Shown in pieces: positions 14,308 to 24,912 of a DNA stretch of 64,000 bases. The stretch covers positions 1,054,001 through 1,118,000 of the forward strand of contig JADJQH010000002.1 of NCBI GenBank assembly GCA_016712865.1, in the 5' to 3' direction. Both the position numbers and the translations under genes were made by a program. The number at the start of each line of letters is the position of its first letter. Position 1 is the stretch's first letter. The notes below the pieces were generated by a model. That model made no database searches. It was not told the DNA's origin and worked only from the letters and a program-made list of their open reading frames with translations. The DNA is from Dokdonella sp. GTDB lineage: Bacteria; Pseudomonadota; Gammaproteobacteria; Xanthomonadales; Rhodanobacteraceae.

Positions 14308-14844
14308 ATGGCTCTGCAACTCATTTCCACCGGCAAGGATGTACCCAACGACATCAACGTCATCATCGAGATCCCGAAGGATGCCGAACCGGTCAAGTAC
14401 GAGGTCGACAAGGCCACCGGGGCGATCTTCGTGGACCGCGTGCTGTCAACGCCGATGCGCTATCCCTGCAACTACGGATACATCCCGCAGACCCTGGGTG
14501 GCGACGGCGACCCGCTCGACGTGCTGGTAATCCTGCCCTTGCCGCTGGTGCCGGGGTCGGCCATCCGCTGCCGTCCGGTGGGAGTACTGCGCATGAGCGA
14601 CGAAGCCGGCGCAGACGAGAAGCTGGTGGCCGTGCCGGTGCCGAAGATCTTCGAAGGCTATGCGCACATCACCGACATCGAACAGGTTTCACGGCACTGG
14701 TTGGAGCGCATCGGCCATTTCTTCGAGCACTACAAGGATCTCGAAAAGGGCAAATGGGTCAAGCTCGAAGGCTGGGGCAACGCCGACGATGCGAAGGCCG
14801 AGATCCTCGCCGGGGTCAAGCGCTACCAGCAAGCCAACGCCTAG
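14308..14844 (+). CDS. ppa: Inorganic pyrophosphatase, family I
   Basis: Ppa hydrolyses pyrophosphate to drive biosynthetic reactions. The 178-residue protein carries the family signature DGDPLDVLV near residue 66, preceded by the substrate-binding RYPCNYGYIPQT. The start at 14308 (MALQLISTG) matches family length, and the upstream ATG at 14191 would add an unconserved segment. A 162-bp repeat element begins directly at the stop codon. Confidence 0.97.
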   Translation: MALQLISTGKDVPNDINVIIEIPKDAEPVKYEVDKATGAIFVDRVLSTPMRYPCNYGYIPQTLGGDGDPLDVLVILPLPLVPGSAIRCRPVGVLRMSDEAGADEKLVAVPVPKIFEGYAHITDIEQVSRHWLERIGHFFEHYKDLEKGKWVKLEGWGNADDAKAEILAGVKRYQQANA

Positions 14845-15005
14845 GAGCCTGCGCGGCAGAATGAATTCGAAGCGAAACGGCGCTGGCGCGATTCAGCGGA
14901 TTAATCGGAAGGTGCGCATAGCGGGCTCTATGAAAGCCTGACGATTGATCCGATCAATCGATGACAGCGTCGTTGCAGCCGGATGGCTTCTGCCGCGCAG
15001 GCTCC
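14844..15005 (+). repeat. 162-bp inverted-end repeat element, copy 1
   Basis: The element is bounded by inverted ends, GGAGCCTGCGCGGCAGAA on the left and its complement on the right. The interior is non-coding (…AATTCGAAGCGAAACGG…). It matches copies at 17398, 22187 and 35223, all 162 bp and in the same plus-strand orientation. It abuts the ppa stop and is followed by a REP pair at 15029-15088. Confidence 0.85.
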
Positions 15006-15028
15006 CAGGGAAGGTCTGAACACGTATT

Positions 15029-15088
15029 GTCGCGAGCAAGCTCGCTCCCACCATTGCTTGATTTTGTGGGAGCGAGCTTGCTCGCGAC
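15029..15088. repeat. REP pair (GTCGCGAGCAAGCTCGCTCCCAC type), copy 1
   Basis: Two 23-bp arms (15029-15051 and 15066-15088) are perfect inverted repeats around a 14-bp loop. This resembles the REP/REPIN units common in Pseudomonas and related genomes. Flanking sequence GTCTGAACA...TGTTCAGAG forms an outer inverted repeat, giving an element of about 110 bp. The copy at 22104-22163 is its reverse complement. Confidence 0.8.
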
Positions 15089-15125
15089 GAATGAGTTCCG
15101 TACTTGTTCAGAGTTTCCCCAGGGC

Positions 15126-17733: not shown

Positions 17734-17916
17734 ATGATCCGTGCAGAAGCCAGAAACACCCTGACCCAGATCCGTACCCTGACCCGCCTGGAGGCATGGA
17801 TCCGCTGCGCCAAGGCGGAACTTGCCAGCACGCCGGGCGACCTGCTCCTGGCCGAGTTCATCCGCGTCAATGAACGCCTGCTTGCGGATGAGCGCGAAAA
17901 GCTCAGGGCTGCCTGA
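17734..17916 (+). CDS. Small hypothetical protein (60 aa)
   Basis: The 60-residue product is helical and charged (RLEAWIRCAKAELASTP in the middle), without a signal peptide or recognised domain. It starts 28 bp after the repeat element and ends 72 bp before the hydroxylase gene on the same strand. The ribosome-binding site is weak. It may be a real small gene of the cluster, a peptide partner, or chance. No homology can be claimed. Confidence 0.4.
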   Translation: MIRAEARNTLTQIRTLTRLEAWIRCAKAELASTPGDLLLAEFIRVNERLLADEREKLRAA

Positions 17917-17988
17917 AGCACTCCGTGCTGCGCAACCGGCAAGGCCAGGCGCTAAACTGGGGCCCCTGCAATCCTTGCCATTTCGCCT

Positions 17989-18645
17989 GTGCTGAACCTG
18001 CCTGATCACGCTGTTCTCGACAAGATCGCCCTGATTGGCGGTTGTGCGAAGTTGCCCATCACCTTCGACGTTGCGCGTGCCGTGACGGAGATTTCCGCGC
18101 TTCCGCAGAGCTTTTGGGGGTCTCGCGGGGGACGTGTCGGGGTCCACAATCCTGCCCAGGCGGTGTTCCTTCGTGGCTACGCGCCGGCCGAAGGAAACCT
18201 TCCGGTCGAGGATCGCGAGGCGCTGTCCCACCTGCCCTACTTGCGCGAGCTGATCGAACAGGTGATTCCTGCGCAACCGCTGCGCTGCCTTCTCGCATTG
18301 CTGCCGGGCGGCAGCGTGATTGCCCCGCACATCGACAAGGCCGACTACTTCGCCAAGACCCTGCGCATTCACTTTCCCATCACCAGCCACGAGCAGGTGT
18401 GGATGTACTGCGAAGGCTTGAACTACCAGTTGCGCCCTGGCGAAATCTGGGCACTCAACAACAGTGCAGGCCACGGCGTATTGAACGCGGATGCCGAGCG
18501 TTCGCGCCTGCACATGATCTGCGATTTCCTCCCCAGTCCCGAGCTGATCGCGCTGCTTGCACGCTCCGACAAGGGACTGGGCCAGCGCAACGCCGAGGTT
18601 GAATCGCGGTTGTTTGGCGGAAAAACGCAGCTGGCCTATCCGTGA
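17989..18645 (+). CDS. Aspartyl/asparaginyl beta-hydroxylase-family protein
   Basis: This is a 218-residue Fe(II)/2-oxoglutarate oxygenase of the AspH/LpxO superfamily (PF05118). The metal triad is visible as H114-x-D116 in APHIDKADY and H162 in NNSAGHGVLN. R173 in RSRLHMICDF is the likely 2-oxoglutarate anchor. No signal peptide is seen, so it is probably cytoplasmic. It uses a GTG start, and its stop overlaps the next gene (GTGA), indicating coupling with the sulfotransferase. The substrate is unknown: protein Asp/Asn, a peptide or a lipid are all possible. Confidence 0.85.
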   Translation: MLNLPDHAVLDKIALIGGCAKLPITFDVARAVTEISALPQSFWGSRGGRVGVHNPAQAVFLRGYAPAEGNLPVEDREALSHLPYLRELIEQVIPAQPLRCLLALLPGGSVIAPHIDKADYFAKTLRIHFPITSHEQVWMYCEGLNYQLRPGEIWALNNSAGHGVLNADAERSRLHMICDFLPSPELIALLARSDKGLGQRNAEVESRLFGGKTQLAYP

Positions 18646-19337
18646 TCGCCACGGATCGTTTCGTCTTCATCCACCTGCACAAGTCTGGCGGCAGTTTCGT
18701 CAACGAATTCCTGATGCGCTGCTTCCCCGGCGCGCACATGCTGGGCTACCACCTGCCTCGTTCGCTGATCCCTGCGGAACTGTCGGGCCTGCCGGTGCTG
18801 GGCTTCGTGCGCAGCCCATGGAGCTATTACGTTTCCTGGTACGCGTTCCAGTTGCAGATGGCGCAGCCCAATGCCCTGTTCCAATTCGTCAGTGACAACC
18901 GCAGGCTGGATTTTTCCGGCACCCTGCACACGCTGATGGAACTCGGCAGCAATGATCGCCTGCTCGACCGATTGCTGGACGTCCTCCCCCACGAATACAC
19001 CAACCGCGGCTTGAACCTGCCCCGCTTCGCTGTGGAGTCGATTCGCGGCAGCGGCTTGGGTTTCTATTCCTGGCTGTATGGCCATCTCTACAGCGGTGGT
19101 GCCAACCCGAGTCGCATCGGCCGGCTGGAAAACCTGCGCACCGACCTGCTGGAACTCCTTGCTGGCGTCAGTCATCCGCTCACGGCGGAGCAAAAGCAGT
19201 TCATCGATACGGCTGCACCACGCAATGCCTCAAGCCACGAACACTGGCGCAGCTACTACGACGAGGAAACCGCGGCGCTGGTGGCGAGGCACGATCATTC
19301 GATCATCCAGCCACACGGTTACCGCTTCGACGCTTGA
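18642..19337 (+). CDS. Sulfotransferase-family protein
   Basis: The 231-residue cytoplasmic protein has a P-loop-like PAPS-binding motif at the N-terminus (FIHLHKSGGSFVNEF, residues 8-22) and a 3'-phosphate-binding segment GFVRSPWSYYVSWY near residue 54. This fits the PF03567-type sulfotransferases more than the cytosolic aryl type. It starts with GTG overlapping the hydroxylase stop by 4 bp. Its end overlaps the convergent fusion gene by 19 bp. The pairing suggests sulfation of a hydroxylated product. Confidence 0.75.
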   Translation: MIATDRFVFIHLHKSGGSFVNEFLMRCFPGAHMLGYHLPRSLIPAELSGLPVLGFVRSPWSYYVSWYAFQLQMAQPNALFQFVSDNRRLDFSGTLHTLMELGSNDRLLDRLLDVLPHEYTNRGLNLPRFAVESIRGSGLGFYSWLYGHLYSGGANPSRIGRLENLRTDLLELLAGVSHPLTAEQKQFIDTAAPRNASSHEHWRSYYDEETAALVARHDHSIIQPHGYRFDA

Positions 19338-21211
19338 GCAAACATCGCGTCGGCTCGCTCGCAGGTTTCGGCAACGCTGTCCCAGACGCTGGCGATTTCG
19401 CGTTCGTGACGTCGCCACTTTTCCTTCTCCGGCGCAGACACCGTGTGCCTGGAGCGCGGCAGGTTGTTTTCCAGACTGAGATCCCACTCGAAGCCGAGCT
19501 CGGCGCACAACCTGCGCATTTCCCGGTCGGGATCGTCCAGCAACGCGTCGTAGTGGATGGCGTGGACGTGATCGCGTGGACCCATGGCCAGATCGTCGAG
19601 CAGGATGCGCATGGTGGTTTGCCACTGGCGTGCCACGATCTGGGGTAATGGTTTTCCAATCAGCTCCCGCCAGCCCGGAACCAGCAGCAGCGACCAGTCG
19701 GGCCCGCTCCATCCGGGCAATTTCGGATAGGTGCGGAATCGTCCCGAAGTCCACGCCTCCATCATGCTCGACAGCACTTCTCGCGGATCGCGATGGAGAT
19801 AGATGAAATGCGCGTCCGGAAACACCTTGCGCAGGAAAGGAATGCGCAGCGCATTCTTTGGCGTCTTCTCCAACAGGCGCACCGCGCCCGCTGCGGGTGG
19901 CCTGCCGTCGCGGTCGCGCAGGGCCTCGAAGAATCGACCGCGCAGACGTGCCACCACCGACTCGAGCGCCAATTCCGCACCCAGCGCGTTGGAATCAAAA
20001 TTGTGATTCGCCGGATGCAATTCCGGCATGCCTTCGATCTGCACGTGGCTTTCATCGCCCACGGTGAACACGTTGCGTGCACGCGCCAGGGTTTCAAACA
20101 GCAGGGTCGAACCCGATCGCGGAGGCGAGATGATGATGACGGGTCGATCAAAGCGCGGCATCGCATCAACGGCATGGGTTGCAGGAGTCCTGCCGGGTGC
20201 CGCTTGCGTCGCCGCCGCCGTCGACGTGGCGAAGGCATCCGGATCGTAGTCGCCCTTGACCACCAGCCCGCCCGCGCCCTGGTCGGTCAACGCGGCTTGC
20301 ACGATCATCGCGCGAAAGGCACCGAGGAACCGCATGCCGTTGCGCATCAACATGCCTTCACCCAGGCGCTGCATTTCGACGTTGAACGGGTCCAGCGCCG
20401 CACGGTAGGCCGGCCAACCTGCCTCGCTTGCTCCAAAGCGCGCCCACAATCCAAGCCAGGTGGCATTGAAGCGCGAGCACAACTGATGGATGGCCCCGAG
20501 CTGCGGCACCGGCATGGCTTCCGTCAGGATGAAATTGAGGTGCTCGCGCAACTCCCATGGCGTCATCACGTTGCCGAGATTTTCGGACTCGAAGATCAGC
20601 TCGGGAGCGTTGCTGGCAACATAGGGCACGCGCTGCGGCCGCCAGCCGGAAACCGGCCGCCCGGCAACCTGTCCACCACTGGCGTGCTGCCAGAACACCT
20701 CGCTGCCCACGGTATCGGCAACCAGGTGAATGCGCTGGTCTGGATTGGCGTTGATGACCCGATGCGGTGCCCAGGTATCGAAGATCCAGCACTCGCCCTC
20801 GGCCATGTTGACTTCGGCATCTGCGCACTGGAAGCGTACCGTTGGCTGGGTCTGGATCGGCACATGCACGCGCACCCGATCTCGCCAGTAGTAGGCAAGA
20901 TCGGCGTGGCGGGGAACTTCGGCATGGCCGGACAGGCGCATCAGGCGGCTGCGTCCCCACACGGCGCCGAGACTCGCCAGCACCTGGCGCAGGTACGGGC
21001 ACGCATCCAGATGGGGCGTCGGCCGCATGGGGCCGGAAATCGAATCGCTCTGCGGATCGCCATTCACGGAAATCAACGGCAGCGCGGAATTGCCGGCAAA
21101 ACCCTGGGGGTGCGGACGCCAGACCGATTCACCGAGTGCATCGATTTCCGAGCGCAGGCGCGCCGCGTCAAAACTGAGCGGCAATTGGACAAAAGGGACT
21201 TGCAGTTTCAT
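19319..21211 (-). CDS. Fusion of Asp/Asn beta-hydroxylase and sulfotransferase domains
   Basis: The 630-residue protein joins two enzymes. The N-terminal AspH-type oxygenase (about residues 20-180) has H102-x-D104 in RHADLAYYW and H150 in APHRVINANPDQR, with R160 for 2-oxoglutarate. The middle helical region covers about 205-345. The C-terminal sulfotransferase (about 355-620) has the PAPS loop PPRSGST (363-369), EKTPKN (448-453) and the 3'-phosphate motif HRDPREVLSS (473-482). It is convergent with a two-gene version of the same activities. Both halves keep their key residues, so it is probably bifunctional. Confidence 0.85.
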   Translation of the reverse strand: MKLQVPFVQLPLSFDAARLRSEIDALGESVWRPHPQGFAGNSALPLISVNGDPQSDSISGPMRPTPHLDACPYLRQVLASLGAVWGRSRLMRLSGHAEVPRHADLAYYWRDRVRVHVPIQTQPTVRFQCADAEVNMAEGECWIFDTWAPHRVINANPDQRIHLVADTVGSEVFWQHASGGQVAGRPVSGWRPQRVPYVASNAPELIFESENLGNVMTPWELREHLNFILTEAMPVPQLGAIHQLCSRFNATWLGLWARFGASEAGWPAYRAALDPFNVEMQRLGEGMLMRNGMRFLGAFRAMIVQAALTDQGAGGLVVKGDYDPDAFATSTAAATQAAPGRTPATHAVDAMPRFDRPVIIISPPRSGSTLLFETLARARNVFTVGDESHVQIEGMPELHPANHNFDSNALGAELALESVVARLRGRFFEALRDRDGRPPAAGAVRLLEKTPKNALRIPFLRKVFPDAHFIYLHRDPREVLSSMMEAWTSGRFRTYPKLPGWSGPDWSLLLVPGWRELIGKPLPQIVARQWQTTMRILLDDLAMGPRDHVHAIHYDALLDDPDREMRRLCAELGFEWDLSLENNLPRSRHTVSAPEKEKWRRHEREIASVWDSVAETCERADAMFAQASKR

Positions 21212-21965: not shown

Positions 21966-22186
21966 ATCACCCCAGATTGGGGAATTCCCGTTCGTGGCGA
22001 GCCCTTCGACTGCGTTCAGGACAGGTCCGTCGAACCATGGACGGTATCAAGGAAGCGCTGATTGAGCCGCTAGCGAAACTCTGAACAAGTACGGAACTCA
22101 TTCGTCGCGAGCAAGCTCGCTCCCACAAAATCAAGCAATGGTGGGAGCGAGCTTGCTCGCGACAATACTTGGTCAGACCTTCCCCA
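21966..22186. repeat. REP pair copy 2 and palindrome downstream of the PIN pair
   Basis: The palindrome CCCGTTCGTGGCGAGC...GTCGAACCATGGACGG lies at 21988-22045. The REP pair GTCGCGAGCAAGCTCGCTCCCAC and its inverse lie at 22104-22163, as the reverse complement of the 15029 locus. No gene is supported here. Confidence 0.75.
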
Positions 22187-22348
22187 GGAGCCTGCGCGGC
22201 AGAATGAATTCGAAGCGAAACGGCGCTGACGCGATTCAGTGGATCAATCGGAGGGTGCGCATAGCGGGCTCTATGCAAGCCTGACGATTGGTCCAATCAA
22301 TCGATGGCAGCGCCGTTGCAGCCGGATGGCTTCTGCCGCGCAGGATCC
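22187..22348 (+). repeat. 162-bp inverted-end repeat element, copy 3
   Basis: Same length and orientation as the copies at 14844, 17398 and 35223. The right end has a GGATCC variant in place of GGCTCC. It directly follows a REP pair, as copy 1 directly precedes one, and the junction sequence is conserved in inverse. Confidence 0.83.
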
Positions 22349-24451: not shown

Positions 24452-24520
24452 CTTGCAGACGCCCATTCAAGCATGTTCAAGCAGCGCAGGCCAGCAGTGG
24501 GCCAATCCGCGCCCCCAATC

Positions 24521-24912
24521 GGTGGATGCGCTGCGCTTATCCACCCTACGAAAGCCAAGTCCGCCGTTGTTCGGTGGATGCGCTGCGCTTATCCACCCTA
24601 CGAAAGCCAAATCCGCCGATGTTCGGTGGATGCGCTGCGCTTATCCACCCTACGAAAGCCAAACCCGCCGTTGTTCGGTGGATGCGCTGCGCTTATCCAC
24701 CCCACGAAAGCCAAGTCCGCCGATGTTCGGTGGATGCGCTGCGCTTATCCACCCTACGAAAGCCAAGTCCGCTGTTGCTCGGTGGATGCGCTGCGCTTAT
24801 CCACCCTACGAAAGCCAAGTCCGCCGTTGTTCGGTGGATGCGCTGCGCTTATCCACCCTACGAAGCCCGATTCGCCGTTGTAGGGTGGATAAGCCCGCAG
24901 GGCGCATCCACC
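24521..24912. repeat. Tandem REP array 1: seven 52-bp units plus one inverted REP
   Basis: Direct units begin at 24521, 24573, 24625, 24677, 24729, 24781 and 24833, each GGTGGATGCGCTGCGCTTAT then CCACCCTACG and a short spacer (GAAAGCCAAGTCCGCCGTTGTTC-like). A single inverted REP closes the array at 24881-24912. All frames are open, so several spurious readings cross it. It has the same design as array 2 at 31631-32278. Confidence 0.92.

Follow-up and report, generated by a model that had tools for sequence, protein, structure and literature searches.

The window analyzed here is a 64,000-nucleotide stretch of the Dokdonella sp. genome (contig JADJQH010000002.1), in which three genes, named P1, P2, and P3, combine two predicted AspH-type oxygenases with two predicted sulfotransferases. 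P1 (17989..18645, plus strand, GTG start) encodes a 218-aa AspH-type 2-oxoglutarate (2OG)/Fe(II) oxygenase and overlaps by 4 bp the gene P2 (18642..19337, plus strand), which encodes a 231-aa Sulfotransfer_2-like sulfotransferase. P3 (19319..21211, minus strand) is convergent to both and encodes a 630-aa AspH-sulfotransferase fusion, assigned on the basis of PF05118 and PF13469. This layout, an overlapping pair facing a fusion, was noted in a preliminary description of the locus and is confirmed. On balance, we lean toward the reading that one cytoplasmic tailoring set is formed by two matched pairs of oxygenase and sulfotransferase, P1-P2 and P3, and serves uptake by a TonB-dependent receptor (TBDT). 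In the proposed mechanism, (i) the AspH/proline-hydroxylase-type 2OG-Fe(II) enzyme would hydroxylate an amino-acid-type carbon in a peptide, protein, or amino-acid-derived ligand, (ii) the partner sulfotransferase, using 3'-phosphoadenosine-5'-phosphosulfate (PAPS), would transfer sulfate to a hydroxyl group on that substrate, (iii) fusion or translational coupling would hold both steps together, and (iv) the set would alter either the ligand of the TBDT or the TBDT protein itself. Gene structure, domain content, conserved catalytic residues, recurrent coupling, recurrent neighbors, and genes for adenosine-5'-phosphosulfate (APS) kinase can be read at the level of sequence; from them we infer catalysis, the order of the steps, action on the same substrate, and a role in uptake. 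Together they suggest a system, so far undescribed, that tailors its target chemically in two steps.

Both oxygenases pass the curated PF05118 cut-off of 22.6 bits, with 45.6 bits (E 8.8e-12) for P1 and 52.3 bits for P3. The residues H114, D116, H162, and R173 of P1 are invariant in a 13-sequence alignment, and H102, D104, H150, and R160 of P3 are invariant in an alignment of P3 with 53 relatives at 47-71% identity (54 sequences); from knowledge of the family, we take the HxD...H residues to be metal ligands and the arginine to bind 2OG. The P1 profile and the N-terminal domain of P3 are homologous (hhalign probability 99.5), and the sequence profiles of both resemble L-proline cis-4-hydroxylase and proline 3-hydroxylase, the former being matched by the P1 profile in PDB (3.2e-10). 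The predicted structure of P3 (pLDDT 90.3, pTM 0.60) comprises a proline-hydroxylase/AspH domain followed by a domain like tyrosylprotein sulfotransferase (TPST). Its fold resembles L-proline cis-4-hydroxylase, proline 3-hydroxylase, and human AspH, and by fold comparison the solved structures nearest the oxygenase domain are nucleoside-antibiotic hydroxylases and proline hydroxylases. Residues 1-311 (20279..21211, minus strand) form this domain together with a C-terminal helical extension shared with proline hydroxylases. Unlike proline hydroxylases and human AspH, the P1 and P3 oxygenases are predicted to work coupled or fused to sulfotransferases.

The sulfotransferase domain of P3 (residues 350-622; 19346..20164, minus strand) matches both the PF13469 (Sulfotransfer_3) profile and the TPST-like fold; it is separated from the oxygenase domain by residues 312-349, which include a low-confidence stretch of the model (330-349). 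Its residues R365, E387, and K449, invariant in the 54 sequences, align with the catalytic R79, E100, and K159 of TPST1, and the fourth TPST1 residue, S286, has no placed counterpart in the alignment. Thus, the key residues said earlier to be kept are indeed conserved in P1 and in both domains of P3. In both its sequence profile and its fold, the domain lies near TPST1/2 (approximately 20% identity); in contrast to these enzymes, P3 is bacterial, fused to an oxygenase, and has no signal peptide apparent by eye. Its likeness to CurM and olefin-synthase sulfotransferases is comparable in sequence and fold, CurM (1.4e-12) and TPST (3.8e-12) being equally close to its profile. CurM-type sulfotransferases are polyketide-synthase domains acting on acyl-carrier-protein substrates, whereas no polyketide-synthase context was seen at the loci described here. 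P2 has no Pfam match at E 0.01 and hence does not reach the PF03567 cut-off, but its profile matches a five-member set (hhalign 98.2), one scanned member of which matches PF03567, and there is a fold match; P2 thus looks like a relative of Sulfotransfer_2 (PF03567). No kinship of P2 with the P3 sulfotransferase was detectable (hhalign probability 0.7). Since the two sulfotransferases belong to different families, the P1-P2 and P3 pairings are independent, in agreement with the two independent layouts suggested before; the homologous oxygenases have therefore been joined to different sulfotransferase types.

A search for fusions and adjacent pairs, proposed with the preliminary description, showed that the two activities co-occur beyond chance, as fusion, split pair, overlapping pairs, and conserved gene order. 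P3 matches (E 1e-10) were found in 80 of the 233 genomes of the family to which the window belongs; 69 of them are strong (1e-90 or better) and 48, by row count, are full-length fusions (48/233), the other 11 (weak, AspH-only, or fragment matches with E above 1e-90) being set aside. The two halves of P3 are separate adjacent genes in G177, G157, and G188. A phylum sample of 398 genomes gave nine matches at 1e-30, including four full-length fusions. Of 465 P3 relatives found in a scan of genome contigs, the best 80 were kept; these include relatives from Dokdonella, Rhodanobacter, Dyella, Rudaea, Pseudoxanthomonas, Arenimonas, Luteimonas, and Caulobacterales/Hyphomonadaceae bins. Two metagenome-assembled genomes labeled Klebsiella pneumoniae (L168) and Rhizobium (L127) also carry AspH-sulfotransferase fusions; the label of L127 looks doubtful because its place in the tree is amid Arenimonas rows, and the same may hold for the label of L168.

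Orthologs of P1 (E below 1e-60) are present in 20 of the 233 family genomes, and a P3-type gene lies within 3 kb in 16 of these, convergent in 14 and divergent in two (G034 and G038), so the neighborhood has survived a change of orientation. The remaining four are G147, cut by contig ends, and three genomes considered below. P2 was found in 11 of the 233 genomes (E below 1e-20) and stands beside P1 in 10 of them, with a contig break between the two in G147; the eleventh match, in G129, is a fragment, and a weak match in G097 was set aside. As contig ends can hide neighbors, all adjacency counts are lower bounds. Further pairings involve other genes of the two kinds. An AspH gene overlaps a divergent sulfotransferase gene by 13 bp in L090, L091, and L093; the L090 sulfotransferase, the one scanned, just passes the Sulfotransfer_3 cut-off (27.9 versus 27 bits). 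Genes of these same kinds are arranged tail to tail in L206. A gene denoted AspH' is paired with Sulfotransfer_2 in L203 and, by cluster membership, in L078. Giant open reading frames (ORFs) near AspH in L092 and L093 were considered as substrates and set aside, the L093 frame looking like a shadow ORF by its letters.

The neighborhoods of the fusion genes link them to receptors and to tetratricopeptide-repeat (TPR) sulfotransferases; neighbors at the loci of relatives are named by cluster labels, and family scans cover the cited representatives. After 27 of the 116 called fusion genes were set aside as identical over residues 61-260, 89 distinct genes were retained; 26 of them have a TPR-sulfotransferase, a TBDT, or both at a distance of up to 5 kb and 15 have P1, these neighbor sets overlapping. 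The P1-P3 region of the window itself has no TBDT within 5 kb. On a FastTree tree with two long rows that join each other, at least 11 changes of the TPR-sulfotransferase/TBDT state are counted, a number that cannot be divided into gains and losses, along with seven changes of the P1 state. Both Lysobacterales and Caulobacterales contain P3 genes with such neighbors. Seven loci of Pseudoxanthomonas (L121, L122, L143, L151, L154, L157, and L166) have a receptor, standing by the pyrophosphatase gene, directly before P3 or three small genes off; no receptor was called near P3 in L124, L148, L161, and L171. Caulobacterales P3 genes (e.g., L126, L137, L152, and L160) have receptors and TPR-sulfotransferases adjacent in otherwise different surroundings. 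The receptor of L203 passes TIGR01782, and none of four other scanned receptors from Lysobacterales and Caulobacterales exceeds a cut-off among the NCBIfam rows shown, which indicates that different receptor types recur.

Several other genes accompany these loci. In L086-L089, from the family of the window, four to five TPR-sulfotransferase genes surround a receptor or P3 gene. Upstream of the receptor in seven loci is a probable secreted protein of approximately 340 aa ending in PYVQY(R/Q/H)QDL (cluster c276, L039:2351-3379 and relatives), one tested member of which has no Pfam match. A ferritin-like gene (PF00210) was rejected as a partner and treated as synteny: it often stands by P3 in the ThiC-type block, is not by the P3 of the window, and was not seen in the receptor-type loci.

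The most regular arrangement was observed in another proteobacterial family, f44, where AspH' matches occur in 31 of 249 genomes; 30 loci were retained after a 61-residue match without a locus (G718) was set aside. The gene run Sulfotransfer_2-AspH'-TPR-sulfotransferase is present in all 30 loci and is preceded by a TBDT in 29; the sequence of the thirtieth, L234, begins 115 bases before Sulfotransfer_2. Reading was extended at 13 loci, namely L203 plus 12 from the remaining 29, and in each a P3-type gene follows the run. In L243 this gene encodes a complete AspH-sulfotransferase fusion that shares 42% identity with P3, and in L242 it is represented by a 113-aa call and the receptor is split over two ORFs. 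All 13 loci (L203 and L237-L248) contain genes for phosphonate or phosphocholine catabolism in the portion read: 12 loci have an HD oxygenase, 10 a phosphonatase, 10 a TIGR03364 oxidoreductase, and seven a phospholipase C. Single representatives of phosphonatase, TIGR03364, and PC-PLC pass their cut-offs, and those of the HD oxygenase (195 versus 214.6 bits) and a PhnR-like regulator (248 versus 297) fall below. As the f44 genomes are related, this catabolic context may go back to a single ancestral arrangement. No precursor peptide gene was recognized among gene calls of at least 40 codons in the 13 operon loci.

A comparable set exists elsewhere in the genome of the window. Approximately 37 kb from P1 (C2:1025-1035 kb), between pilT-like and hslO-like genes named from their sequences, are a TBDT, two Sulfotransfer_3 genes with open frames of 675 and 614 aa, and two 2OG-FeII_Oxy_3 proteins. 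TPR repeats were found in one of the two sulfotransferases, the other being scanned as a 212-aa call. The same site in the congeners L038-L040 holds a TBDT, a TPR-sulfotransferase, Sulfotransfer_2, and a P3-type AspH; it seems that the oxygenase family is exchangeable here, with the receptor and sulfotransferase staying. A second TBDT-TPR-sulfotransferase pair is located in L186. The nine Sulfotransfer_3 matches of the genome (including P3) and its two APS-kinase matches support sulfation in this organism.

Repeated coupling supports the earlier proposal in part: the pairing holds up, and one pathway that would add a hydroxyl and then sulfate to a common substrate gains plausibility as a conjecture. 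Both cosubstrates, 2OG and PAPS, are cytosolic, and inspection by eye reveals no signal peptide, so the two activities likely act on one substrate in the cytoplasm. Hydroxylation would come first, with sulfate placed on the new hydroxyl, an order favored by the fusion and by the 2:2 pairing.

A number of observations weigh against a joint tailoring set tied to uptake. A housekeeping block (ThiC, pyrophosphatase, DUF2333, TetR) holds 52 of the 89 fusions, that of the window included, and for 45 of these 52 the surrounding 5 kb lack both a TBDT and a TPR-sulfotransferase; the adjacency of P1 and P3 is therefore partly inherited synteny. P1-P2 is on another contig, unlinked to P3, in G136 and G127, and accompanies no P3 that could be found in G010. 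P3-type AspH genes have no called sulfotransferase neighbor in L083, L084, and L085, nor does a smaller AspH in L205, and the third AspH match of the genome itself (C2:238015) has no Sulfotransfer_3 match within 130 kb. In L041:8433-10451 an AspH domain has DUF4915 (PF16261) as its fusion partner in place of a sulfotransferase (as a separate observation, this gene adjoins one for a 1242-aa protein with a GEVED domain). Among enzymes of the AspH fold are also some whose substrates are free amino acids, nucleosides, or lipids, and no precursor peptide gene was seen near P1-P3. The linked receptors show no enrichment of acidic-tyrosine motifs (2-8 each versus 6 in a single comparison receptor). 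Finally, the two domains of P3 could act on different atoms.

The strongest alternative develops this last point, at odds that we consider low: both domains of P3 would act on the same protein or peptide at different residues, AspH hydroxylating Asp, Asn, or Pro and the TPST-like domain sulfating tyrosine. The closeness of the P3 sulfotransferase to TPST1/2 in profile and fold agrees with it, and the TPR domains of the neighboring sulfotransferases would fit protein substrates; however, the equally close CurM sulfotransferase acts on a beta-hydroxyl, and the tyrosine motif counts of the receptors give it no help. Somewhat less probable still is a specific form of the tailoring proposal, in which the cytoplasmic pairs and protein-reading TPR companions would install a hydroxy-sulfate (e.g., O-sulfated beta-hydroxy-Asp/Asn or hydroxyproline) on the adjacently encoded TBDT before its export, thereby changing binding or import. 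As a candidate substrate, the receptor is favored solely by being the only non-enzyme gene in the conserved run.

Two further explanations appear quite improbable, to a similar degree. In the first, suggested by CurM, sulfation would be a transient activation, the new hydroxyl being sulfated and leaving as sulfate to give an alkene or cyclization; no thioesterase or eliminating partner was recognized in the conserved f44 run, though, and TPST is equally near. The second is modification of a lipid or lipopolysaccharide (LPS), after LpxO and OlsC, which are PF05118 members. Rhodanobacter-type P3 genes do lie near waaA-, lpxL-, and core-glycosyltransferase-like genes (names read from sequence, with no family search), but the same conserved block also has tolC-, pcm- (PIMT), thiC-, and pyrophosphatase-like genes, and the other contexts of P3 contain receptors, not LPS genes. 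As P3 resembles proline hydroxylases, including the helical extension, and TPST/CurM, a lipid is the least favored among the peptide, protein, and lipid substrates envisaged initially. Chance neighborhood without shared function in a repeat-rich region, suggested by the long repeats flanking the region in the window, is contradicted by fusion in many genera and two classes, by overlapping genes, and by one order in 29 of 30 loci, and can practically be dismissed.

The favored tailoring set differs from the known systems that it resembles. RaxST/RaxX and sulfated methanobactin represent bacterial sulfation of a ribosomal peptide, and methanobactin is imported via a TBDT; unlike those clusters, no precursor peptide gene was seen near P1-P3 or, among gene calls of at least 40 codons, in the conserved operon. 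Another parallel is the CciT/CciO (PiuA/PiuC) pair of Caulobacter, a TonB-dependent receptor and a cytoplasmic 2OG/Fe(II) dioxygenase that are co-conserved, the dioxygenase being needed for receptor function; that report leaves open what the dioxygenase acts on and why such dioxygenases adjoin many TonB receptor genes (PMC12004947). A 2OG dioxygenase gene co-conserved with an adjacent TBDT is seen in the f44 operon (29 of 30 loci) and not at P1-P3 of the window. The oxygenases described here are of AspH type, and the main text of that report contains no word beginning with 'sulfo' (PMC12004947). The enzyme types are known, and the coupling and the gene run were not found in our literature searches: in agreement with the initial impression of novelty, these returned no description of AspH-sulfotransferase fusions or of the receptor operon, which is weak evidence as open-licence papers only, mostly titles and abstract starts, were covered. 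Two chemistries, hydroxylation by 2OG enzymes and sulfation from PAPS, come together here in a single polypeptide and in a conserved gene run tied to import receptors, across two proteobacterial classes. A stable hydroxy-sulfate product, if true, would be a new modification and could help to explain the frequent placement of TonB receptor genes beside those of cytoplasmic 2OG dioxygenases; the fusion offers a single well-modeled protein for testing this question.

The surroundings of P1-P3 in the window have several minor features. The codon-usage gene caller places the P1 start at 18163, whereas the alignment of relatives favors 17989. A 60-aa ORF at 17734-17916 was rejected as a precursor peptide: in L034, its counterpart and P1 are approximately 2.2 kb apart, the counterpart being upstream and separated from P1 by another ORF. 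Adjoining P3 is a PIN-domain ORF (PF13470, 21214-21753), to which a shorter 74-aa call corresponds in position in L034. The region is flanked by a 135-nt inverted repeat (96%; 14988-15122 and 22070-22204) and by a three-copy 170-nt direct repeat (listed repeat positions 14840, 17394, and 22183), which might be traces of past rearrangement. A tandem array of a 52-bp unit (24519-24890; 7.2 copies, 93% matches) lies just upstream of a HIRAN-domain gene.

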